A stretch of 64,000 nt of DNA, taken from a virus. The position numbers and the translations under genes were made by a program. The notes under the pieces were generated by a model, which did no database searches, was not told where the DNA came from, and was given only the letters and a program-made list of their open reading frames with translations. The first letter of the stretch is position 1. Each line of letters opens with the position of its first letter. The stretch is from IMG/VR virus record IMGVR_UViG_3300020448_000004, positions 1-64,000 of that record. One strand, 5' to 3'. Below are positions 41,801 through 64,000 of this stretch, one piece after another.

Positions 41801-44800
41801 CCAGTTCCCGCAGGATCATTAACACCGACAAATATACAGTTGTTATTACTTGTAAATTTAAGATCTGTTAGTTGTTCTGATCCTGATGCAGTACATATTT
41901 TACGTTTTTCTTTAATAGCACCCTGTTCATCTAATAAAGCAATCCACATATCATCTGGATTTGGAGAGTTAGTATCTGTTGTACCACCAACATATATTTG
42001 ACCATTATCATCTATAGTTAAAGATGTTATGTAATCTCTTCTTGTAGAACCAGAAATACCTGCAATTTCACGTTGCCATACAGGAACAGCAGTAGGATTG
42101 TTCTGTGCATCAAATCCAGAGGTATATTTAGCAACAACTAGGTCTGGGTTATATGTTAAGTTAACACTATTAGGAATTGTTTCACCAACAACGTAGATAG
42201 AATGTGGTGATGTGTTTTCAAGATAAATTCTATTAAATACACAACGTTTATCTCCCGCAGCAGGTTGTAGTGGTGCCATTGTACGTGTCCACAACAATCT
42301 ACCATCACTATTGAATTTTGCAAGTAATCCTGCTGAATCTCCATCAAGATCATCTGCTTCACCAACAACGTAAAATGTTCTATCATCAGCAGTAACAATA
42401 TCTTTAATTTTTACTATTTTTTCAATACTGCTATTTTCATCTAATAATGTAAGAGCATAATTTGCTTTTTTATACCTTTGTGGGTGACTTACTCTAACTT
42501 CTGGTGGAGAACTAGGTGTATATTGTGATCCAGAGTTAATAATATTAACTGTATTAACAGCACCAGATTCTAGTTGTACAAGTTCTAATTTAAAATCTTG
42601 ACCAGTTCCTGTAACAATTTCGTAAGTTGGTGGAATATCATCATTATATCCAAGACCTTGTTGACTAATATCTACTGTTTCAACACCAGATACGACTTTT
42701 ACTCTGTAAGTTTTGTTTGTTTGATCAATAATTGGAATACTATCAACAATAATCTCATCATTAACTCTTAGATCGTGTTCACCAGAAGTTGTAATTTTTG
42801 CTAATGGTGAATCATTAACCAAAGATGAGGTGTACTGACTAACACTAATACCTTGTACAGCGTTAACTTTAGCAGATGCACCATATCCACCAGTCCCTGT
42901 ATCGTCAAAAAATAATTTATCATTAACTTTATATGATATACCTGGGTTTTCAACTACAAATCCACTAATTTTAGCATCTTCAAACTTGGTAGTAGTATCA
43001 ATCTCAATATCAACTTGTGATCTAGTAGATACACTAGGGTAGTAATCAAATAATTGTAGTACAGGTTCTTCTGAGATATAATTTAATTCGTTTTGTTCTT
43101 CTGTTGATATAACACCGTCTCTGTTAGTATCTTCTATTTCAAAAATAAACTCATCACCTATTTCAGTTACAAGAGTATCTGTATCTTGGTTAGGTGTACG
43201 TTCAATATCAATATCAACATCTTCGTAAGGATCACGGAATCTAACAACATCACCTGGAATATTTGTTTGTACAGCATCTTGACTGTAGTTCCACTCGTCA
43301 GGTCTTGAATATAACTGTGGTCCACATACATATGGGAATACAGGTAAACCTGCTTCTGATGCGTCAATAGAAACAAAGTAAGCATATGTACCTTCAGGAT
43401 ATTCAGGTGTCTTACAATATCTACCATTATATTGATCTAAATCACCTGCTTGGAACACATACTCATAATCTTCTATGTAAGTTCCTGCGGGTTTATCTGA
43501 TAATAACGGTCCATCAGTACGAATTGGATTTGGGTTAGTTGCAGTATCAAATTCTAGTATTGGTTTGATTCTATAAGATGATACACATCTCTTAATACCA
43601 GATGATTGATCAGCAGCATCAATGTAACCATATGGTCCGTATATTGGGTTTCCATCAAATGCCCATCCAATAATAGGAGAGTGTCTCAGTCCTGCTGAAA
43701 GTTCTCTAAGATTACCTGATGATGGATCTTTAAATACATTATCACCAAGAACATAACGTAATTGTTTAGGATCTGATAAATGTGCATATTCACCACCATA
43801 CTGTGTGTTATATCCTGCAAAAACATAACCACGAGAAGGATCTGTCAATCCTGACAACTCAGTTTCTAAATTTTGTGTCCACTCAAATACATTTGCAGTA
43901 AATGATGCACCTTGACCAATAGATTCACAACGAATAGTTGTAAGACCAGTTGAATATCCTATACCTCTATTTTCAACACTAATACTTAAAACACGTCCTT
44001 TATCTTCACCAAATGTTCCTATAGTTGCTTTTGCGATAGCACCGTAACCATCACCGTTAATAATTACATTAGGAGGAGATGTATATCCACTACCTGAGTT
44101 AATAATAGCGATTGATACAATACGTCCATTAATTATAATTGGTTGTGCAACAGCACCTTCACCAGAATTTAATTTAATATTAGGTGCAGTTGTATAACTT
44201 GATCCTGCTGTATCTACACTAATAGATTGAATAGGACCTCTTACCTCGGCAGTAGCAGTTGCACCTGTTCCATTGCCTCCTGAGATGCTTACAGTAGGTG
44301 CTGAGGTGTATCCTTGACCAGGTGTTTCAACAAGAACTTTACTTACAACTCCATTTGTAATAACAGCAGTTGCAGTAGCACCAAATCCACCTCCACCAAC
44401 AATAGAAACTAATGGTGATGAGGTATATCCAGAACCACCTGCTGTTACATCAACATTAAATAAAGAACCATTTACAACAACACTAGCAGCAGCACCAGTT
44501 CCACCACCACCAGTTATTTCGATTAATGGTTTAGAAGCAGCGTCATATCCAGAACCTGCATCTATAATGTCAAAACTGGTAATTCCACCAAATTTTGTCT
44601 TAATTTGAGACTTATAAGACCAAACAGCAACACCATTTACCCAACATCCAATAGGACCAAATGATAAATCATCACGACGTGATACAGTATCAACAATTCT
44701 AGGAAATCTACTTAACTTTCTTTGGTTTCCTGGGAGTAGAGCAGACCCAATGAACGGACCAACTTTATAGTTTGGAATACCTGTTGTAGCAATATAAGAG

Positions 44801-57149: not shown

Positions 57150-57160
57150 AGAGGGTTGCT

Positions 57161-57205
57161 TAGTGTTGTTATATTAATTATAGCGAATAATTCCGTATAG
57201 TGTGA
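57161..57205 (-). promoter_or_regulatory. Early promoter with AACAACACTA leader
   Basis: On the minus strand TATAAT (57177-57182) is followed after 6 nt by AACAACACTA (57161-57170), placing that motif at the predicted 5-prime end of the mRNA. The -35 is weak (CACACT region). There is no Shine-Dalgarno before the ATG at 57149. Confidence 0.6.
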
Positions 57206-57368
57206 ATAAACTCCAATATATGTTAAGTTGCAGTTATTATGACAATTTGTAACAGAATAGGTAGAAAAAAAATCCGTTTCGTGCTAACTTCCTAAGACTA
57301 CAATTAACTAGAGATATAAAATTATAAACTATATTTATTTTAACCTTTTTAATATATACTAAATTTAT
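57206..57368. other. AT-rich gene-free stretch
   Basis: No gene seen between the early promoter and the HNH gene end. It contains AATAAATA (57332-57339, minus), which resembles a late promoter but has no start within 180 nt. Confidence 0.5.
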
Positions 57369-57734
57369 TCATTTATACCGTAAGTTTTTAAAATGATCGT
57401 TTACTTTGTTTCCGTCAATATGCCTAACTTGTTTATTTTCGATAGTGGTTTTTAGTCCACTTTCTGAAGTCTCCGCACTTAAAAATGCACTTGCTACTAA
57501 CCTCGCAATTCTTCTTACTACTGTCTTACCGTTATATCTCAAAGTCACTCTCTTGTAACCGTTTTCATTAATATGAGTTTGTAATTTTTTCCACTTTCCC
57601 CACTTAGTAGAGAATACTTCCCCACTTTCATTTATATAATAATCTTCATACAATGGTAGAGGTTTATAGATGATTCCGCTATCGTCTAGGAAAGTTTCCG
57701 CATCTACTTTTTTAAATGTGTAAATAGTCATCAT
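57369..57734 (-). CDS. NUMOD4/HNH-type endonuclease
   Basis: The 121-residue protein combines a NUMOD4-like part (LYEDYYINESGEVFSTKWG at 29-47, then LQTHINENGYKRVTLRYNG) with an HNH_3-like end, VRHIDGNKVNDHFKNLRY (103-120). HNH nucleases nick DNA and are often mobile (homing) genes in phages. The protein stops right after NLRY, lacking the usual tail. The His normally seen in vHrLVA is Arg here (VRRIARLVASAF), so activity is uncertain. It is preceded by the ArdA terminator, lacks the AACAACACTA leader of its neighbours, and may be an insertion. Confidence 0.75.
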   Translation of the reverse strand: MMTIYTFKKVDAETFLDDSGIIYKPLPLYEDYYINESGEVFSTKWGKWKKLQTHINENGYKRVTLRYNGKTVVRRIARLVASAFLSAETSESGLKTTIENKQVRHIDGNKVNDHFKNLRYK

Positions 57735-57747
57735 TTTAAAGGATAAT

Positions 57748-57776
57748 AAAAAAAGGGACTTGTTAATAGTCCCTTT
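57748..57776 (-). terminator. Rho-independent terminator after the ArdA-like gene
   Basis: On the minus strand AAAGGGACT-ATTAACA-AGTCCCTTT forms a perfect 9-bp stem with a 7-nt loop, running into a T7 tract. It lies about 33 nt after the stop at 57809 and just before the HNH gene. Confidence 0.85.
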
Positions 57777-57808
57777 ATATATAAGATTAATTAATGCCCT
57801 TTTTTAAC

Positions 57809-58348
57809 TTAAAAGTTGCTAAAAATGTGATTATCCCATTCGCAATAGTCATAACTTAGTGAATGATTCCATATTTTATCATAGTCAATACAGTTTTCTA
57901 TCCAGTAAGGTAAAGAGTTAGAGATATAACCACATTCTGAGATTAATTCCTCTGTAAATTCTGCTCCGCTGTCATATCTCCCTCTATAACTATCTTCTAA
58001 GTGCATTAAGTCGTTTATTGAAAAAAGATTAATAAATGCTTCAATAATCTCATCTACTGGACTATTGTAATATCTTAATTCTGAACATACATTTTCGTAT
58101 GTGTCAATTTCGTCAATAGCGTCATCTATATCTAAGTTGAAAGTCTCTTGAAATTCTTGAATTTCGTCAAGTCTCTCTATTCCCTCATCAAGTGCAATTT
58201 CTGTAACTTTAGTAAATTCTACTCCATAATCAGTAGAAAATTCTAAACTACGGTCAACAATAGCATTAAGTTCTAATACTCTTGATTTTCTTAGGTCAGC
58301 ATTGATTTTGTCTAGTCTAGTTTGCTGAGAGTTAGATAAAGTTTGCAT
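57809..58348 (-). CDS. ardA: ArdA-like antirestriction protein (DNA mimic)
   Basis: ArdA proteins mimic bent B-DNA and block type I restriction enzymes. The C-terminal ~75 residues (105-179) follow the ArdA pattern. EDSYRGRYDSGAEFTEELIS and ECGYISNSLPYWIE are followed by NCIDYDKIWNH, then YDYCEWDNHIF. This parallels the AYxGxYDSxEDFAxEL...LPxYxDYxAxxxDL...YxExDGHVF consensus. The protein is strongly acidic throughout, with a helical Asp/Glu-rich N-terminus (QEFQETFNLDIDDAIDEIDT). It is monocistronic, with a strong promoter upstream and a terminator downstream, consistent with immediate-early expression as DNA enters. Confidence 0.8.
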   Translation of the reverse strand: MQTLSNSQQTRLDKINADLRKSRVLELNAIVDRSLEFSTDYGVEFTKVTEIALDEGIERLDEIQEFQETFNLDIDDAIDEIDTYENVCSELRYYNSPVDEIIEAFINLFSINDLMHLEDSYRGRYDSGAEFTEELISECGYISNSLPYWIENCIDYDKIWNHSLSYDYCEWDNHIFSNF

Positions 58349-58356
58349 TTTGGGAT

Positions 58357-58402
58357 TAGTGTTGTTAAATTAATTGTACCATACTTTTTTGATATATGGC
58401 AA
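58357..58402 (-). promoter_or_regulatory. Early sigma70-type promoter for ardA
   Basis: TTGCCA (-35, 58397-58402), an 18-nt spacer and TACAAT (-10, 58373-58378) lie on the minus strand. After 6 nt comes AACAACACTA (58357-58366), then the start at 58348 without a Shine-Dalgarno. Confidence 0.75.
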
Positions 58403-58426
58403 GAAAAAAGAGAATTTAATATTCTC

Positions 58427-58669
58427 TTAATATTCGCTCCATTGTCTCAAATATGAGTTAATTTCTGCTAAAGTGCAAGAATATTTGTATTCAGCACCAT
58501 TACCAGTAATAAATCTTCCAAAACTATTAGTAAGTGCTAACTCATATAATCCGTCATTTTCAAAATAAAGGATAGATGCACCAAAACTATTATTAGGGAA
58601 ATTAATTTTACTTACTTTAGTGTTTGGGATATTTCCCTTTTCTGTAGCGTAAGGATAAAACTCGAACAT
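58427..58669 (-). CDS. Hypothetical protein (80 aa)
   Basis: Not recognised. The small protein is beta-rich, with SKINFPNNSFGASILYFEND, then GLYELALTN and a C-terminal helix (LAEINSYLRQWSEY). It has its own promoter/leader and a terminator upstream of that, so it is probably transcribed alone before ardA. Confidence 0.65.
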   Translation of the reverse strand: MFEFYPYATEKGNIPNTKVSKINFPNNSFGASILYFENDGLYELALTNSFGRFITGNGAEYKYSCTLAEINSYLRQWSEY

Positions 58670-58677
58670 AGTGTAAT

Positions 58678-58740
58678 TAGTGTTGTTAATACTATGATAA
58701 CATAAATTTTACATTATGTGAGTTTTGAATTGTTAAGAAA
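58678..58740 (-). promoter_or_regulatory. Early promoter with distal TTTCTTAACAATTC element
   Basis: The minus strand carries TTTCTTAACAATTC (58727-58740), then TATGTTAT (58697-58704) overlapping -10 TATCAT (58694-58699). After 6 nt comes AACAACACTA (58678-58687). The same element set recurs before three other genes. Confidence 0.6.
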
Positions 58741-58751
58741 TAATAAAGCAT

Positions 58752-58784
58752 AAAAAAAAGGTTAGAGTTCCCAATTCTAACCTT
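58752..58784 (-). terminator. Rho-independent terminator
   Basis: The minus strand reads AAGGTTAGA, a 9-nt loop and TCTAACCTT, followed by a T8 tract. The 9-bp stem is perfect. It ends the unit containing the 144-aa gene and the possible 34-aa peptide. Confidence 0.85.
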
Positions 58785-58800
58785 AAATATAGGAAACAAC

Positions 58801-58905
58801 TTAGTATTCTAAGTTATTAATTTTTAATTTATTATTTGAACTAACAATATTAACCATAGTGTGAGATATGATTAATATTACTGGACTTACAATAAAAGTG
58901 AACAC
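58801..58905 (-). CDS. Possible 34-aa membrane peptide (GTG start)
   Basis: This frame runs from a GTG, 25 nt after the 144-aa gene, to a TAA just before the terminator. The N-terminus is hydrophobic (FTFIVSPVILIISH) and the tail polar. There is no clear Shine-Dalgarno; an internal ATG preceded by CACACT would give only 18 aa. Weakly supported. Confidence 0.3.
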   Translation of the reverse strand: MFTFIVSPVILIISHTMVNIVSSNNKLKINNLEY

Positions 58906-58930
58906 TAAAAACTTTTAAATGCCAGTTACC

Positions 58931-59365
58931 TTAAACTGGTAGTGGGTAGAATCCGTTAGTGTTGAAATAGTCAATATCTGAAATAGTTAAATGCTTTTCA
59001 AATACTTTCATACCTTCATAAAATTGAATCTCAGCACCAGTAAGTGTATCAATAACTACCCATTGCTTTTTTACTTGCTTTATATAAACTCTATCCTTAG
59101 TTAATTCGCTAAGAATAGCGTTTAATCTCTCTTTAGTTGTTTTAGTTCTAAATCCGCCATTATACAATTTAACTGACCTATAACCAAAATGTGTATGGTC
59201 AATTTCTGCTATAACAGTATCGTAGAATTTTACGTCAACAATATTTGAACCGTCTTGTCTAGTAATAACTTCAGTATTACCTAGTCCAGTTCCTTTTGTG
59301 TTGCACTTCATCATAGCGAAAATTGCTGATGTAGTACTGGGTTTTGAAAAAGTCAAAGTTGGCAT
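58931..59365 (-). CDS. Conserved-type phage hypothetical protein (144 aa)
   Basis: The middle section, HFGYRSVKLYNGGFRTKTTK followed by ERLNAIL, matches a pattern common in small phage proteins (strand, GGxxTxTTKxRLN helix) whose function I do not know. KQWVVIDTLTGAEIQFYEGM follows, resembling a small beta unit. It is the first gene after a promoter of the TTTCTTAACAATTC/TATGTTAT type and its unit ends in a strong terminator. Confidence 0.7.
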   Translation of the reverse strand: MPTLTFSKPSTTSAIFAMMKCNTKGTGLGNTEVITRQDGSNIVDVKFYDTVIAEIDHTHFGYRSVKLYNGGFRTKTTKERLNAILSELTKDRVYIKQVKKQWVVIDTLTGAEIQFYEGMKVFEKHLTISDIDYFNTNGFYPLPV

Positions 59366-59373
59366 TTTGAAAA

Positions 59374-59441
59374 AGTGTTTTTTGCTTATGTACCTATATT
59401 AACATAACATATAGGTTAGTGTGGATTGAATTGTTAAGAAA
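59374..59441 (-). promoter_or_regulatory. Early promoter with distal TTTCTTAACAATTC element
   Basis: On the minus strand TTTCTTAACAATTC (59428-59441) is followed by TATGTTAT (59404-59411) and TAATAT (59396-59401). An AAAAAACACT leader (from 59374) precedes the start at 59365. The -10 assignment is uncertain between the two AT elements. Confidence 0.55.
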
Positions 59442-59443
59442 AT

Positions 59444-59575
59444 CTAAAATCTTTTTTTCTTAGAATCTCTTATCATTTTATTAAACTTTTTACTTTCTTT
59501 TGGGGTCATACCACAAAAATAGTTTAATAAGTTGCCTTCATATTGATCGGCAAGTTCAAGTAACTCTTTATCCAT
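59444..59575 (-). CDS. Small hypothetical protein (43 aa)
   Basis: It starts MDKELLELADQYEGNLLNYF and ends in a basic tail (KKFNKMIRDSKKKRF). The start overlaps the preceding stop as TAATG. A distal promoter element follows right after its stop. Function is unknown. Confidence 0.65.
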   Translation of the reverse strand: MDKELLELADQYEGNLLNYFCGMTPKESKKFNKMIRDSKKKRF

Positions 59576-59679
59576 TATTTTCTATCCTTATTAATAGCGT
59601 GGTAGTCTAGGTTAGTTGCAATCGCTTTACCAGTTATGAATAAAGCATAACAACCGCCTATGAGAATGAATAATTCCAT
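59575..59679 (-). CDS. Tiny membrane peptide (34 aa)
   Basis: MELFILIGGCYALFITGKAI is a hydrophobic segment; a short polar tail ATNLDYHAINKDRK follows. TAATG overlaps on both sides support the frame. A single membrane span is likely. Function is unknown. Confidence 0.6.
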   Translation of the reverse strand: MELFILIGGCYALFITGKAIATNLDYHAINKDRK

Positions 59680-59813
59680 TAGTGAATACCTCTAAGTAAG
59701 TTTTTACTGTTGTTAAACTGATCTATAAGAATCTCAGTTTTAGCGTTTTGTTTCGCTATTTCCTTATCTGCAAATTTGATAAGTCTATGAAGCATTTTTA
59801 AATCCTTATCCAT
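59679..59813 (-). CDS. Small helical hypothetical protein (44 aa)
   Basis: I start it at MDKDLKMLHRLIKFADKEIA, where an ACCAACACTATGG leader precedes the ATG. An upstream in-frame extension of 19 residues would overlap the promoter. The protein is one long basic helix. First gene of a three-gene TAATG-coupled unit. Confidence 0.65.
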   Translation of the reverse strand: MDKDLKMLHRLIKFADKEIAKQNAKTEILIDQFNNSKNLLRGIH

Positions 59814-59827
59814 AGTGTTGGTTAAGT

Positions 59828-59877
59828 TAGTGTTGTTTGTATATAACCAATATAAGGGATAATTAAACATAATGCAA
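59828..59877 (-). promoter_or_regulatory. Early sigma70-type promoter
   Basis: TTGCAT (-35, 59872-59877), a 17-nt spacer and TATATT (-10, 59849-59854) lie on the minus strand. AACAACACTA (59828-59837) lies downstream and a second AACACTA abuts the ATG at 59813. Confidence 0.7.
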
Positions 59878-59892
59878 TAGGAAATCCGATTC

Positions 59893-60135
59893 TTAACATT
59901 TTTTTAACAATTCATCTTTTCCTCTTTGAATATATCCCTTTTTGTATGATTCGATACTAATTTCGCTTAAATTCTCTATTTCTTCCCTAGTTAAACCCGA
60001 TTCTTCAAAAATTAGTGCATTATCACTAAATTCCATTAATGTTTCAAGTACTTCCTCAAAAGTAAAATCTCTATTAATTGCATTTTCCCCAAATGCAATT
60101 TCAAAAACTTCCTCAATAAATTGTTTTTGGTTCAT
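59893..60135 (-). CDS. Acidic helical hypothetical protein (80 aa)
   Basis: Glu-rich and helical throughout: FIEEVFEIAFGENAINRDFT, FEEVLETLMEFSDNALIFEE and LTREEIENLSEISIESY. There is no motif I recognise. The acidity could suit a DNA-mimic or protein-binding inhibitor, which is speculation. Last gene of a four-gene coupled unit, joined to the gene upstream by TAATG. Confidence 0.65.
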   Translation of the reverse strand: MNQKQFIEEVFEIAFGENAINRDFTFEEVLETLMEFSDNALIFEESGLTREEIENLSEISIESYKKGYIQRGKDELLKKC

Positions 60136-60359
60136 TACTTAGAATCCTCCATAACTTCGCTAGTATCTTGAATTGTAAACTCATAATCTACATTATCATT
60201 AATATCAACATAATTGCAATCGAAAAAACTTTCAAATTGACAATTAGTTAAAATATTATCTTTTAGATAATAAAATGTTATGTTATCATCAGGATTACAC
60301 GTTGATTTTTCATAATCAACAAATAAACCCAATTCTTTAATTAGTTGCTTGATTTTCAC
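60135..60359 (-). CDS. Acidic hypothetical protein (74 aa, GTG start)
   Basis: MKIKQLIKELGLFVDYEKST begins the protein, followed by an Asp/Asn-rich beta part with Cys at CQFESFFDCNYVDINDNVDY. The GTG start overlaps the preceding TGA stop (GTGA), a coupling that supports the non-ATG start. Function is unknown. Confidence 0.65.
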   Translation of the reverse strand: MKIKQLIKELGLFVDYEKSTCNPDDNITFYYLKDNILTNCQFESFFDCNYVDINDNVDYEFTIQDTSEVMEDSK

Positions 60360-60493
60360 TTGATTAACTCCTTATGTAATTTGATTAAAATGTCAGAATT
60401 AACATCAAGAATTTCATTTTTCTTGTCATCATTTTCTGAATAATGAAAGTTTAAACACTCTATCATATAGAGTAACTCTTTTTGTGTAAACAT
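60356..60493 (-). CDS. Small hypothetical protein (45 aa)
   Basis: MFTQKELLYMIECLNFHYSE is followed by a polar helix ending KLHKELIK. It is coupled to the upstream gene by TAATG and to the downstream gene by a 4-nt overlap. Function is unknown. Confidence 0.65.
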   Translation of the reverse strand: MFTQKELLYMIECLNFHYSENDDKKNEILDVNSDILIKLHKELIK

Positions 60494-60702
60494 TATACAA
60501 TTCCCTCCTCTATTAATCCCATTATGTTGCCTGTTTCATCAATTATTTCCCCAGTTTTGTTATCTCTAACACAACTGTATTCATAATCACAACCAAATTC
60601 AAAGGATAAATCCTTTGCTTTTTCTAAATCATCAGTATATACCTCTGAATCGAAAAGTCTAGGTGTTTCAACTGTGTATTTGAAATTGAATGGATTTGAC
60701 AT
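60493..60702 (-). CDS. Small hypothetical protein (69 aa)
   Basis: Short alpha/beta protein: MSNPFNFKYTVETPRLFDSE, then YTDDLEKAKDLSFEFGCDYE and YSCVRDNKTGEIIDETG. The last part resembles a strand-turn-strand ending found in several tiny phage proteins (VRDxxTGEIID). It is the first gene of the four-gene unit, with AACAACACTA and no Shine-Dalgarno upstream. Confidence 0.7.
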   Translation of the reverse strand: MSNPFNFKYTVETPRLFDSEVYTDDLEKAKDLSFEFGCDYEYSCVRDNKTGEIIDETGNIMGLIEEGIV

Positions 60703-60708
60703 TTTTTT

Positions 60709-60778
60709 TAGTGTTGTTTGTTTATAATTTATTATTGCATATATTTCTAGTATATGTCAATAATGAAATATTAAGAAA
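60709..60778 (-). promoter_or_regulatory. Early sigma70-type promoter
   Basis: A perfect TTGACA -35 (60755-60760), 17-nt spacer and CAATAA -10 (60732-60737) lie on the minus strand, with AACAACACTA at 60709-60718. A degenerate form of the distal element (TTTCTTAATATTTC, 60765-60778) lies upstream. Confidence 0.75.
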
Positions 60779-60781
60779 TAA

Positions 60782-61009
60782 TTAAGGATTTTCCCATTTA
60801 ATTTTCTTTTCTGAATTTGCTATATCAAAACAGATTTCGCAAAGACAATCAGCATCAGGGAAGTGATCTCGCCAATCGTATTTTTCTTGTAATGGATAAT
60901 CCCAATAGTAATAGAGATCAGGTTGATAATCTGGGTCATTTTTGAACATATCAATTTCGCCATCAATATGTTCATCATTAAAATTTCCACACTTATCGCA
61001 ATATGACAT
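60782..61009 (-). CDS. Zinc-ribbon-like CxxC protein (75 aa)
   Basis: Two Cys pairs, CDKC (residues 4-7) and CLCEIC (near 55-60), frame a Tyr/Asp/Trp-rich middle (DYQPDLYYYWDYPLQEKYDW). Four cysteines are thus available for one zinc ion. Small zinc ribbons in early phage regions often bind host polymerase or nucleic acid; that is inference here. TAATG-coupled to the upstream gene. Confidence 0.7.
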   Translation of the reverse strand: MSYCDKCGNFNDEHIDGEIDMFKNDPDYQPDLYYYWDYPLQEKYDWRDHFPDADCLCEICFDIANSEKKIKWENP

Positions 61010-61263
61010 TATGCAACCCCCATTTTTGTTAATGTTTGATTAGTTGCTCTACGCTCTATAACAAAATCTCTTACTCTCTCTCTATCAAGAGAATCGCCAC
61101 CACCCCAAGTAACGTGAGTTCCAACTTCGCATAGGTCAAGATAGTTTAAAGTTGCAAGTGCTAACTCTTCCCTAGTTAAACCGTCAATAGGGTAAAGTAC
61201 ATCAGGGTGATTAGGTGAATAGAATGATTCACAATAATCAAGAAATTCTTTAAAGTTGTCCAT
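61009..61263 (-). CDS. Hypothetical protein (84 aa)
   Basis: I start at MDNFKEFLDYCESFYSPNHP because AAAAAACACT directly precedes that ATG as in neighbouring genes; a 9-residue upstream extension is possible but would run into the promoter. The core, GLTREELALATLNYLDLCEV followed by THVTWGGGDSLDRERVRDFV, is alpha/beta with a Gly-rich turn. Function is unknown. Confidence 0.65.
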   Translation of the reverse strand: MDNFKEFLDYCESFYSPNHPDVLYPIDGLTREELALATLNYLDLCEVGTHVTWGGGDSLDRERVRDFVIERRATNQTLTKMGVA

Positions 61264-61332
61264 AGTGTTTTTTGTATATGAATCCATCATAACATAAAAT
61301 AATGAATAATGGATATTTGAATTGTTAAGAAA
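61263..61332 (-). promoter_or_regulatory. Early promoter with distal TTTCTTAACAATTC element
   Basis: On the minus strand TTTCTTAACAATTC (61319-61332) is followed by TATGTTAT (61289-61296) overlapping TATGAT (61286-61291). AAAAACACTA runs into the ATG at 61263. Confidence 0.6.
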
Positions 61333-61335
61333 TTA

Positions 61336-61551
61336 TTAAATTGATAATGATAGTTGAGTATCAGCGAAAATTTCTTCTTCAATGTCCTCTATAACTTCAT
61401 TGAATTCGCCAAAATCTTCAGTATAATCTGACCAACCATAATCGCCACTTTCATAGATTTCTTTAGCGTGGTTCTTACTTTTTGCTTCAAAAGTGTAAGT
61501 TCCATATTTTTCAAATTTTACATTGATGTAATATCTTTTTAATTGATTCAT
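61336..61551 (-). CDS. DpnD/PcfM-like small protein candidate (71 aa)
   Basis: The arrangement is a strand, YYINVKFEKYGTYTFEAKSK, then the helix NHAKEIYESGDYG and a second acidic strand (FGEFNEVIEDIEEEIFADT). It resembles the short xVEAxSxEEAxxxV family that includes DpnD/PcfM-like proteins. Function is unknown. It lies 4 nt after the stop of the preceding gene. Confidence 0.6.
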   Translation of the reverse strand: MNQLKRYYINVKFEKYGTYTFEAKSKNHAKEIYESGDYGWSDYTEDFGEFNEVIEDIEEEIFADTQLSLSI

Positions 61552-61555
61552 TTTT

Positions 61556-61819
61556 TTAACCCTTTGCTTCTAGTTTTTGTTGGAATGCAATTCTATCCCT
61601 TTCTTCGGGTGTAGTCATTCTCTCAGGGTCATATTGAGCGTTATATGCTCCTTGAAAGTCAAATCCTAGCATACCGTCAACGATTTCCTGTAACTCGTCA
61701 ATATCTGTTTCAAATTGACTAAACCAAAAATCTTGATTCATAATGTGTAAGGACTCATTTTCCTTACGATAGTTTTCTAGGTCAGTTTGGAACTGTTCTA
61801 AAATTTTTTCAAAATCCAT
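61556..61819 (-). CDS. Acidic helical hypothetical protein (87 aa)
   Basis: MDFEKILEQFQTDLENYRKE starts a long acidic helix. Then come FWFSQFETDIDELQEIVDGM and a C-terminal TTPEERDRIAFQQKLEAKG. No family is recognised. First gene of a two-gene unit; TAAAACACT precedes the ATG and there is no Shine-Dalgarno. Confidence 0.65.
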   Translation of the reverse strand: MDFEKILEQFQTDLENYRKENESLHIMNQDFWFSQFETDIDELQEIVDGMLGFDFQGAYNAQYDPERMTTPEERDRIAFQQKLEAKG

Positions 61820-61889
61820 AGTGTTTTATGTGTGTTATATCCATATTACCATAACATAGTGAATAATGGATATGTGAATTGTTAAGAAA
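61819..61889 (-). promoter_or_regulatory. Early promoter with distal TTTCTTAACAATTC element
   Basis: On the minus strand TTTCTTAACAATTC (61876-61889) is followed by TATGTTAT (61851-61858) and GGTAATATGG. A TAAAACACTA leader runs into the ATG at 61819. Confidence 0.6.
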
Positions 61890-61897
61890 TTATTAAA

Positions 61898-62182
61898 TTA
61901 ATAATTGCAAGTAGCAAAGGAATAAGATTTGCATAAATCAAATATTTGTGAAGTCAAATCCTCTAATTCACTTTCCCAATTTTCATTTTTATCTGAAATT
62001 TCTACTTTACTGAGTGCTATATGTTGACATTCATACCATAAGAATTGATCTGTGTCATATCCTACAATTTCAAGAATGTCATTACCATATTCTGCATAAC
62101 AATTAGGATAATATTCTTTAATATGATCTATTAATTCTGTTTCCCAATTATCAAATTGTGTTGTTTCAGTTTTAGTTTCCAT
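61898..62182 (-). CDS. Acidic hypothetical protein (94 aa)
   Basis: The start METKTETTQFDNWETELIDH has a GAGG Shine-Dalgarno nine bases upstream; a longer frame lies wholly within the upstream gene. Cys-containing YYPNCYAEYGNDILEIVGYD and LCKSYSFATCNY at the end stand out. Acidic overall; no family recognised. It overlaps the upstream gene by 11 nt. Confidence 0.65.
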   Translation of the reverse strand: METKTETTQFDNWETELIDHIKEYYPNCYAEYGNDILEIVGYDTDQFLWYECQHIALSKVEISDKNENWESELEDLTSQIFDLCKSYSFATCNY

Positions 62183-62321
62183 TGTGATAAACCTCGTAGT
62201 GTTGAATTGTGTCAAATGTTTCAATTTGATGATCGTTTAACTCAAAGTCCATATCTCTGAGTATATCATACAATTTAACCATATTGTAAATTTGATCGTT
62301 TGTCAATGGTATATTAATCAT
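62172..62321 (-). CDS. Small hypothetical protein (49 aa)
   Basis: MINIPLTNDQIYNMVKLYDI is followed by LRDMDFELNDHQIETFDTIQ. An AAGGA Shine-Dalgarno precedes the ATG. It overlaps the upstream gene by 8 nt and the downstream gene by 11 nt. Function is unknown. Confidence 0.6.
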   Translation of the reverse strand: MINIPLTNDQIYNMVKLYDILRDMDFELNDHQIETFDTIQHYEVYHNGN

Positions 62322-62529
62322 TTTCCTTACCTCGCATTGAATCGTCAAATTTGTAATATGTGTATAACCACTCGAAATTTTCTGTTAATGGTTCATTACC
62401 ATCTACAACAAATTCCTCAAATAATGCTCTTGAGTCCTCCATACGGTTCTCATCAACTGCTTTAATAGTTGATTTCATTATTGTGTCAATACAAACATCA
62501 ATAGATTTATCTAGTGATTCTGTTTTCAT
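62314..62529 (-). CDS. Small acidic hypothetical protein (71 aa)
   Basis: I start at MKTESLDKSIDVCIDTIMKS, with GAGGA upstream; a TTG five codons earlier is unlikely. The C-terminus FEWLYTYYKFDDSMRGKEND is aromatic and acidic. Its start is one base after the preceding stop. Function is unknown. Confidence 0.6.
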   Translation of the reverse strand: MKTESLDKSIDVCIDTIMKSTIKAVDENRMEDSRALFEEFVVDGNEPLTENFEWLYTYYKFDDSMRGKEND

Positions 62530-62530
62530 T

Positions 62531-62698
62531 TTAAAAATCCTCAACTGTTAAATTGTTTACTGCATCAAATACTTTATCTTCCATTGAGTCAAATGTATCT
62601 GTGTCATATAAATCACTTCTATATTTTACCGTTTTAGGGTGGCATAATAATTGAGTGAGTGATTGATGCTCTTCGATTGATAGTTTGATTATAGGCAT
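62531..62698 (-). CDS. Small hypothetical protein (55 aa)
   Basis: It begins MPIIKLSIEEHQSLTQLLCH and continues with Asp-rich YRSDLYDTDTFDSMEDKVFD. GGAGG-like sequence (GGTAGGAGG) upstream serves as Shine-Dalgarno. It overlaps the upstream gene by 10 nt. The IxLSxEEHxxLxxLL start resembles the 77-aa protein further upstream, hinting at a duplicated family. Confidence 0.6.
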   Translation of the reverse strand: MPIIKLSIEEHQSLTQLLCHPKTVKYRSDLYDTDTFDSMEDKVFDAVNNLTVEDF

Positions 62699-62859
62699 AA
62701 GTCCTCGAACCTCCTACCAACGATAGCATCTATAGATACAAAGTCAAGATCGGACTCTTTAACATTGTTGAATCCTTCTTTTCTTAGATTTTCGAGTGAC
62801 TCTGCAACAACTTCATCATAAAGTGTTTCTAAGATTGACTCGTGATGTAAAACTGACAT
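62689..62859 (-). CDS. Small acidic hypothetical protein (56 aa)
   Basis: MSVLHHESILETLYDEVVAE leads into SLENLRKEGFNNVKESDLDF and a C-terminal VGRRFEDLCL. First gene of a five-gene overlapping unit; CAAAACACTATT precedes the ATG. Function is unknown. Confidence 0.65.
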   Translation of the reverse strand: MSVLHHESILETLYDEVVAESLENLRKEGFNNVKESDLDFVSIDAIVGRRFEDLCL

Positions 62860-62861
62860 AA

Positions 62862-62911
62862 TAGTGTTTTGTTTCTTGATTTAATATTAAACGATAATGT
62901 GACTATTTCAA
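62862..62911 (-). promoter_or_regulatory. Early sigma70-type promoter
   Basis: TTGAAA (-35, 62906-62911, within the last codons of the upstream gene), a 16-nt spacer and TAATAT (-10, 62884-62889) lie on the minus strand. CAAAACACTA follows at 62862-62871. Confidence 0.65.
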
Positions 62912-63136
62912 GTTTGGTAGTGCCACTTCGTTAACTGTCATAGCATAGAACACTTTTTCAAATGTTGCTTTGCTATCTTTTAATTTGTTCTTTTTGTACC
63001 ATACTCTATACATATCAACGGTATTTGATGTATCATTACCTTTTGTTTCATTATTATAGAATGTAAAAAAGAACATCATAGAGTCAATTAAAATCTGTTG
63101 CTCTGTTTCATTTAATGTTATGTTAAATTGTTTCAT
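62903..63136 (-). CDS. Small hypothetical protein (77 aa)
   Basis: MKQFNITLNETEQQILIDSM is followed by an aromatic segment MFFFTFYNN and basic RVWYKKNKLKDSKATFEKVF. The N-terminal strand plus ExxxL helix resembles small NxTLNxxEQQxL phage proteins whose role is unknown. It starts 2 nt after the upstream stop. Confidence 0.65.
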   Translation of the reverse strand: MKQFNITLNETEQQILIDSMMFFFTFYNNETKGNDTSNTVDMYRVWYKKNKLKDSKATFEKVFYAMTVNEVALPNLK

Positions 63137-63138
63137 AA

Positions 63139-63477
63139 TTACATATAGAATGAAGTAGGTCTTTTAGAAATTTTATTATGATCTTTTCTTTTCATTCTTA
63201 GAACCTCGAAATCTCTATCAATACCAAATGCTGATTCACTAGGTATTGGAAATGTAGTTTTACGTTGCTCTTTAGATAACTCTAGTTCATTTTCTGTTAA
63301 CCATTGATCGTTAATGAGTTCTTGAACCTTTCTAAATGCTCCTACAACTGCATCTTTACCGTATCGGTCAAATGCTAGTCCAGTTGGTGCATTATTCTCG
63401 TCTAGGTCACAATAACAATAACCTAGTCTATTTGCGACTAAACCTAGTTCTCTTGCTGTTAAATTAAGTTGATACAT
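63139..63477 (-). CDS. Hypothetical protein (112 aa)
   Basis: The N-terminal LNLTARELGLVANRLGYCYC echoes the start of its downstream neighbour. GKDAVVGAFRKVQELINDQW and a basic C-terminus (RMKRKDHNKISKRPTSFYM) follow. No family is recognised. It has its own TATAAT promoter. Confidence 0.65.
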   Translation of the reverse strand: MYQLNLTARELGLVANRLGYCYCDLDENNAPTGLAFDRYGKDAVVGAFRKVQELINDQWLTENELELSKEQRKTTFPIPSESAFGIDRDFEVLRMKRKDHNKISKRPTSFYM

Positions 63478-63478
63478 T

Positions 63479-63549
63479 TTAGTGATGTGGGTTGTAGTAG
63501 TTTAACAATAACATTATAACAAATATAATTACTATAAATGTTAAGAAAA
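63479..63549 (-). promoter_or_regulatory. Early promoter, extended -10
   Basis: TTGTTATAATG (TATAAT at 63513-63518) lies on the minus strand. A degenerate distal TTTTCTTAACATTTA (63536-63549) lies upstream and a variant leader, CATCACTA, before the start at 63477. Confidence 0.6.
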
Positions 63550-63798
63550 TCATAAGATTTTTTCCTCCATTTTGTTGTCAATTAAATAAGCAATAAAATC
63601 ATTCCATTCTGACCAATCTTGATCGTAAACTTGATAACAAATGTCTTTGATAAATTCCTCATCAATTTTTGTTGTATCCCATTCTTCCCTATCGTATGTG
63701 TCAATAACAGATAATACATCTGATTTTATGTCAACATAGTCCATAGCAAATTGCATAGGATTAGGGCAACTGTTTAACCAGTTTTCATAGGTCATCAT
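63550..63798 (-). CDS. Acidic hypothetical protein (82 aa)
   Basis: It starts MMTYENWLNSCPNPMQFAMD, with an Asp/Glu/Trp-rich rest (DTYDREEWDTTKIDEEFIKD, then DQDWSEWNDFIAYL). The ATGATGA junction with the upstream gene allows a start at either Met. Function is unknown. Confidence 0.65.
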   Translation of the reverse strand: MMTYENWLNSCPNPMQFAMDYVDIKSDVLSVIDTYDREEWDTTKIDEEFIKDICYQVYDQDWSEWNDFIAYLIDNKMEEKIL

Positions 63799-63959
63799 TT
63801 TTCGATCTCCAAAGAGTCAATAAAGGCAACACAATATTCAGTAAATTTCTTTACATCAATAGGTGCTACTTTGTCATCTTCTTCTCCAATATAATAAAAT
63901 TGGTTATTGGTGTTTGAAATGAATGTTTCAAGTGCTATTTCGTTTTTGGTGTAACTCAT
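63795..63959 (-). CDS. Small acidic hypothetical protein (54 aa)
   Basis: MSYTKNEIALETFISNTNNQ is followed by FYYIGEEDDKVAPIDVKKFT and a C-terminal helix. It starts right after ACAACACTACT and overlaps the downstream gene. Function is unknown. Confidence 0.65.
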   Translation of the reverse strand: MSYTKNEIALETFISNTNNQFYYIGEEDDKVAPIDVKKFTEYCVAFIDSLEIEK

Positions 63960-63961
63960 AG

Positions 63962-64000
63962 TAGTGTTGTAACTGATTTAATATTAATACTATTATGTGT
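63962..64000 (-). promoter_or_regulatory. Early promoter, cut by window edge
   Basis: TACAACACTA (63962-63971) and AT-rich -10 candidates (TAATAT, 63981-63986) lie on the minus strand. The -35 may lie beyond the window. Confidence 0.45.

Follow-up and report, generated by a model that had tools for sequence, protein, structure and literature searches.

The small-gene island of an uncultured virus raises the question of what is achieved by a short A/C-rich sequence that recurs just before the first genes of its units, where Shine-Dalgarno (SD) sites are missing. The analysed DNA, hereafter the window, is a 64-kb stretch (positions 1 to 64,000) of the 90,579-base record IMGVR_UViG_3300020448_000004, and the sequence in question is a 5′ leader whose exact form is AACAACACTA. 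A sequence-only reading had proposed that this leader replaces SD sites in early genes, either as an A/C-rich unstructured translation enhancer or as a transcription-start signal. Our analysis leans towards early-mRNA 5′ leaders that would act as SD-independent, position-tolerant translation enhancers. The leader signal is real and lineage-specific, and it sits in a repeated promoter-leader cassette resembling the PeSL (early promoter and stem-loop) modules of T4-type phages.

The contig belongs to the T4-like cyanophages (Kyanoviridae), a placement based on genes that include those for baseplate, tail and endonuclease V. A protein of 1,096 amino acids is 31-35% identical to those of P-RSM6, S-SZBM1, P-TIM40 and S-WAM1; at the DNA level almost no similarity to cultured phages was found, so that footprinting relied on uncultured relatives, and besides this contig a handful of other IMG/VR contigs make up the lineage as recovered here. 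Genes were called with a simple codon-usage caller and their starts were corrected by hand. The motif-bearing island (about 56.7-68.6 kb), made up of small minus-strand genes, is flanked by structural genes and by a helicase/halogenase block. The T4-type late promoter ATAAATA was found 5′ of structural genes and before none of the motif-bearing island units, which also lack NATAAATA 10 nt before the start, and two unit-first genes are anti-restriction homologues; together these features fit early expression of the island units.

On the minus strand, exact copies of AACAACACTA were found at 57161, 58357, 58678, 59828 and 60709, all as previously given, and one more copy lies at 65360, just outside the window. 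All six minus-strand copies lie 5′ of a gene start (0.16 expected); the only other exact match was a chance-like plus-strand copy at 44476. For exact copies overall, 0.43 were expected, and shuffles gave a maximum of 2 in 100 trials. The close variants at 61263, 61819, 62862 and 63962 were recovered as well, and every one of these sites lies between a sequence-inferred −10-like hexamer and the first ATG of its unit, with the qualification that at 61263 and 61819 the final A of the motif is itself the A of the ATG. Exactly 6 nt separate the −10 from the start of the motif at 57161, 58357 and 58678, as the sequence-only reading had it. That reading had not included the site AAAACACTTT before 59365, nor looser sites before 63477, 66067, 66763 and 68140. 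AACAC was present in 13 of 15 early unit-first leaders and AACACT in 11, a count that no 6-mer reached in 1000 dinucleotide shuffles, where the best was 8. What is conserved is a core, AACAC(T), rather than the full 10-mer. A search of Rfam gave zero matches.

The lack of SD sites in first genes and their presence in downstream genes were both borne out. SD sites were called from anti-SD duplex energy (−4.4 kcal/mol, 4-20 nt upstream), and none of the 14 first genes in the island had such pairing with the 16S anti-SD, compared with 17 of 20 downstream genes (p = 1e-6), a result robust to the threshold. The same trend was observed in 80 related loci (SD in 210/834 first and 417/769 downstream genes). 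Prochlorococcus MIT 9302 (400 kb) served as a stand-in for the host of this phage; there, SD sites precede 3-5% of first genes and 15% of downstream ones, and the CCTCCT anti-SD is intact. Since SD sites are rare throughout this genome, the SD-less first genes of the phage are host-like, and the strong SDs inside its units are the departure. The notion of replacement therefore holds only in part: in other cyanophages, the genes orthologous to 61263 follow TATAAT and a short A/C-rich leader, often with AAAGGAG or AAGAGG in the slot of ACACT, but SD-less first genes are the Prochlorococcus norm, so there was nothing that needed replacing.

A typical unit is arranged as an upstream element, about 26-30 bp, an extended −10, 6 bp, a leader of 15-24 nt and the ATG. 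The promoters are mostly of the extended −10 type (TGnTATNAT), with putative −10 hexamers and a weak −35 or none; because the −35 is weak, a generic sigma-70 scan did not separate these promoters from chance (51 found, 46 expected). Two clearly repeated promoter classes share an identical leader type. Class A, with the layout TTTCTTAACAATTC...TATGTTAT, comprises the promoters of 58669, 59365, 61263 and 61819, whose TTTCTTAACAATTC elements lie on the minus strand at 58727..58740, 59428..59441, 61319..61332 (about 27 nt 5′ of the −10) and 61876..61889, respectively; TTTCTTAACAATTC with a downstream TATGTTAT was found in only two other IMG/VR contigs. Class B, with a TTTAATATTAAATCAGTTACAACACT-like sequence, comprises the promoters of 62859, 63959, 65360 and 66067, and the 57149 promoter falls outside both classes.

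The leaders, taken as the 15-24 nt after the inferred extended −10, consist of 54% A, 26% C, 17% T and only 2.5% G; their putative length is to be set beside the 10 nt or so that at most precede the AUG in a leaderless mRNA. The distance from −10 to ATG is 21-30 nt in this contig and 34 nt in two orthologs. Within it, ACACT begins 7-20 nt from the −10 and AACACT stands 0-12 nt from the ATG, often abutting it (61263, 61819, 65360), so that both distances vary and ACACT is not tied to one place with respect to the start site. ACA is enriched near the start codon, at a mean of 2.33 per 20 nt that exceeds all 2000 shuffles, and the start regions of first genes are less structured than those of downstream genes (p =.003) or late genes (p =.002).

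In orthologs, AACACT was identical at 107 of 114 positions (94%), on a par with the −10 (96/102) and with the discriminator of 6 nt (95/102), whereas the rest of the leader (176/208, 85%, p =.019) and the upstream spacer (572/679, 84%, p =.006) were less conserved. In the ortholog of 61819 on the relative L446 the promoter has been replaced, class A having given way to class B, with AACAACACT-ATG retained. AACAACACTAATTTCCCAAA and ATACAAAACACTTTTCCCAAA alternate among orthologs of 58348, and in the 57149 leader of L446 and L439 the first ACACT has become ACGAA while the second, TTACACTTTT, closer to the ATG, is retained.

Outside the lineage, ACACT occurred in 1 of 180 distinct leaders (5 expected), and by this comparison AACACT is lineage-specific. 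In the 112-kb lineage member G018, AACACT leaders precede only early-island genes and no replication or structural units. CAA(A)CA is enriched throughout the family (47 vs 27), and other cyanophage early leaders hold 1.08 ACA per 20 nt (shuffle 0.70, maximum 0.84), compared with 0.61 before late genes and 0.25 in host first genes; ACA-rich early leaders are very probably a family-wide cyanophage trait. The exact 10-mer matters less than the ACA-rich, G-free leader and its contrast with SD-bearing downstream genes. Two further ideas on the origin and spread of the motif were rejected. Borrowing from the host was discarded with 4-7 copies of the 10-mer per 1.5-1.7 Mb Prochlorococcus genome, the level of the reversed control. 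As for a wide viral spread, −10 plus 6 nt plus AACAACACTA was found in 110 IMG/VR stretches, compared with 89 for a scrambled control; before a plausible open reading frame start the count was 17 vs 8, and the cyanophage cases were this lineage's own 57149 site; the exact module is thus not widespread.

On these grounds we propose that each unit carries a compact promoter-leader cassette, in which an upstream element is followed, after about 26-30 bp, by an extended −10 that would be read by a host sigma-70-type RNA polymerase, and then by a leader that is 15-24 nt long, A-initial, nearly G-free and furnished with one to four ACA, in this lineage as AACAACACTA or AACACT. A start-site signal would be expected at a fixed distance from the −10, and an SD substitute at a fixed distance from the ATG or paired to rRNA; neither was seen, which suggests an RNA-level element near the start codon. 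The −10-like conservation, the survival of the promoter swap and the lack of fixed spacing also make both a start-site signal and rRNA pairing less likely and fit position-tolerant ACA enhancers. Thus, of the two functions originally offered, the enhancer is the better supported (A/C-rich, almost G-free, low structure, −10-like conservation, retention on promoter swap), and the start signal is weakened, there being no fixed −10 spacing and only some leaders that open with the motif. In Salmonella, ACA motifs raise translation without a strict position and ACAA repeats function without an SD (PMC3879156); in cyanobacteria, SD-independent, S1-dependent initiation has been described (PMC5607370, PMC6847405) and has been proposed for Prochlorococcus (PMC5607370). 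From these two precedents we infer an enhancer leader that would work through ribosome docking: the ACA-rich single strand beside a free 5′ end would offer the host 30S a landing place leading to the adjacent ATG, with ribosomal protein S1 as our tentative choice of partner, and downstream genes, which have no 5′ end of their own, would use GAGG-type SD sites. That the leader functions in translation appears moderately likely.

Several observations weigh against this interpretation. In Prochlorococcus itself the SD-less leaders have no ACA richness (0.25 per 20 nt), which means that the host can do without ACA, and the ACA effect was demonstrated in enterobacteria, mostly with an SD present (PMC3879156). 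Conservation of the 5-nt ACACT is also more specific than would be needed for a generic ACA enhancer, which makes a sequence-specific reader possible. Sharing of the motif is partly a matter of copying whole cassettes, as in the class A and class B promoters, and the difference in conservation, drawn from few relatives, is modest (p =.019 and.006).

Some of the same data could be read without any role in translation. An A/C-rich stretch at +1 to +10 might aid the host RNA polymerase in start-site choice and promoter escape, translation being incidental: the leaders all lie 21-30 nt past the −10, 11 of 13 have A at the seventh base past it, three open exactly with AACAACACTA, and the motif is missing from operon-internal genes. 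This promoter-linked explanation appears unlikely, given offsets of AACACT that vary from 7 to 20 and often bring it against the ATG, its retention under a different promoter in L446, and its absence from late promoters of the same phage. Nor do we attach much probability to the proposal that promoter-leader cassettes were simply copied round the island as PeSL-like recombination modules, with a leader devoid of its own function. Both promoter classes are plainly repeated and other cyanophages, such as P-TIM68, have their own repeated cassettes, but AACACT is found with both classes as well as with the unrelated 57149 promoter, its conservation exceeds that of the remaining cassette, and it survives the class A to B swap. 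P-TIM68 and P-RSM6 carry SD-like GGA in their repeated early cassettes; in the early island of P-TIM68 (L012 13423-18097) a different repeated leader, CACTAAATGTTAGTTACCTCTAAATTGAnnnATTAATGTAATCAAGGAATGAAATT-ATG, was observed before about ten early genes.

The leading alternative that involves a specific reader is a regulator recognising AACACT, for example RegA. The motif would then be an RNA operator bound by a phage protein such as the RegA of the lineage, repressing or timing early mRNAs at their start codons, or by some other translation-promoting factor. T4 RegA binds unstructured A-rich stretches at or beside the AUG of about 30 mRNAs (PMC3014915), a RegA gene is present in G018, and the motif is lineage-specific and restricted to early units. 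The known targets in T4 and RB69, however, are U-rich or UAA-type and not ACACT, the T4 consensus being U/A-rich, inclusive of the AUG and without an ACACT core (PMC3014915), and RegA is family-wide whereas AACACT belongs to a single lineage. We regard the operator as rather improbable. It is also unlikely, though conceivable, that AACACT is a lineage-specific RNA tag by which a phage-encoded or phage-modified factor selects early mRNAs for SD-independent translation or joint shut-off, downstream genes using SDs; if so, leader dialects would differ among cyanophage lineages, as promoter dialects do. Pairing with another region of 16S rRNA in place of the SD deserves almost no credence: the motif occupies the SD slot and the host anti-SD is intact, so the ribosome can pair, but pairing of the motif was rejected in view of its best duplex of −6.3 kcal/mol with Prochlorococcus 16S, weaker than the shuffle mean of −7.1, and by the absence of TAGTGT from the 16S.

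The enhancer leader favoured here resembles the ACA enhancers of yifK and dppA (Yang, Figueroa-Bossi and Bossi 2014, PMC3879156) and CA/ACAA repeats in being a short unstructured ACA stretch by the start codon, position-tolerant and in several copies per leader. Those of yifK and dppA assist an SD and are silenced by the small RNA GcvB, whereas the phage leader has no SD, measures only 15-24 nt and contains a specific ACACT core conserved in one phage lineage. With cyanobacterial S1-dependent initiation it shares the host class, where SD-less first genes are normal, but it differs in sequence, the S1 sites that have been proposed in Prochlorococcus being pyrimidine-rich and the phage leaders A/C-rich (PMC5607370). 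The T4 RegA operators are alike in that many early mRNAs carry them as unstructured A-rich RNA at the AUG (PMC3014915). PeSL cassettes are alike as repeated early promoter modules in a small-gene island, often with a stem-loop beside the promoter; classes A and B are likewise early promoters repeated between early genes, and hairpins precede some of the promoters, though not all. These cassettes were reportedly described, by Arbiol in 2010 and Comeau in 2014, through promoter and stem-loop. To our knowledge, a conserved leader is no part of them. PMC4503421 mentions both papers.

Site by site, all on the minus strand, the leaders are as follows. The 57149 gene (138 aa) has AACAACACTAAGCAACCCTCT (57150..57170; exact motif 57161-57170, −10 TATAAT 57177-57182); the 58348 gene (179 aa, anti-restriction family) has AACAACACTAATCCCAAA (58349..58366; exact motif 58357-58366) behind the extended −10 TGGTACAAT (hexamer 58373-58378); and the 58669 gene (80 aa) has AACAACACTAATTACACT (58670..58687), with the exact motif at 58678-58687, a second ACACT abutting the ATG and the −10 TATCAT at 58694-58699. 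A variant site in ATAAGCAAAAAACACTTTTTCAAA (59366..59389; −10 TAATAT 59396-59401) precedes the 59365 gene (144 aa). The leader AACAACACTAACTTAACCAACACT of the 59813 gene (44 aa; 59814..59837) combines the exact motif (59828-59837) with a second AACACT abutting the ATG, its −10 TTATAT (59841-59846) being the least certain, and TAAACAAACAACACTAAAAAAA of the 60702 gene (69 aa; 60703..60724; exact motif 60709-60718) follows a TTGACA-18-AATAAT promoter with TG. For the gene listed from 61290 the true start is 61263, since most relatives align from the Met there; the leader of this gene (84 aa, phrog_7799) is ATATACAAAAAACACT (61264..61279; −10 TATGAT 61286-61291), with the variant AAAAACACTA overlapping the ATG. 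AACACACATAAAACACT (61820..61836; −10 TAATAT 61843-61848) belongs to the 61819 gene (87 aa), and class-B promoters drive AAGAAACAAAACACTATT of the 62859 gene (56 aa; 62860..62877; −10 TAATAT 62884-62889) and AGTTACAACACTACT of the 63959 gene (54 aa; 63960..63974; −10 TAATAT 63981-63986). Before the 63477 gene (112 aa) lies a looser A/C-rich region, CTACTACAACCCACATCACTAAA (63478..63499), without AACACT or SD.

A palindrome, TGTGACA-STTnAAWTAS-TGTCACA or a GCCA/TGGC form with matching changes in both arms, was observed 29 or 30 bp 5′ of the −10 in many cyanophage early promoters, and TTTCTTAACAATTC occupies the same place 26-27 bp 5′ of the class-A −10. Palindrome sites occur at 64017-64040 of the contig (63959 promoter, outside the window), near 65424, 66134, 66830 and 68209, and family-wide (loci L014-L093). 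GTGKCACA precedes 136 of 1058 first genes (11 expected), with a spacing of 29 in 60/95 and of 30 in 20/95, and TGKCACA-N29-TATAAT gave 40 matches in the cyanophage records searched and none in reversed controls, three Prochlorococcus genomes or T4. The palindrome looks like the operator of a cyanophage early regulon, and its novelty may exceed that of the leader. In P-SSM2, P-SSM4 and G018, intrinsic terminator hairpins with T-runs lie inside the 29-bp spacer between palindrome and −10, so that the promoter of a unit encloses the terminator of the preceding one, a composite, PeSL-like arrangement. Elsewhere in the record, the structural genes include a single open frame of 7028 codons (26896-47982, minus strand), exceptionally large for a phage protein, and two neighbouring genes of the tryptophan-halogenase family (L008 14500-17627; contig 78.0-81.1 kb) have a parallel in P-RSM6.

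Start-codon choice in SD-poor marine cyanobacteria is an open question, and the translation signals of cyanophages are little studied. Here a single phage would use two initiation modes divided by position in the unit, an SD-less ACA-rich leader at the 5′ end and strong SDs inside, and the ACA enrichment of early leaders extends through the family and is not shared by the host. For gene callers, this means that the early genes of this phage are not findable via SD. With the leader, SD-independent initiation in cyanobacteria gains a concrete sequence that can be tested, and one that may serve as a portable expression leader for these bacteria.

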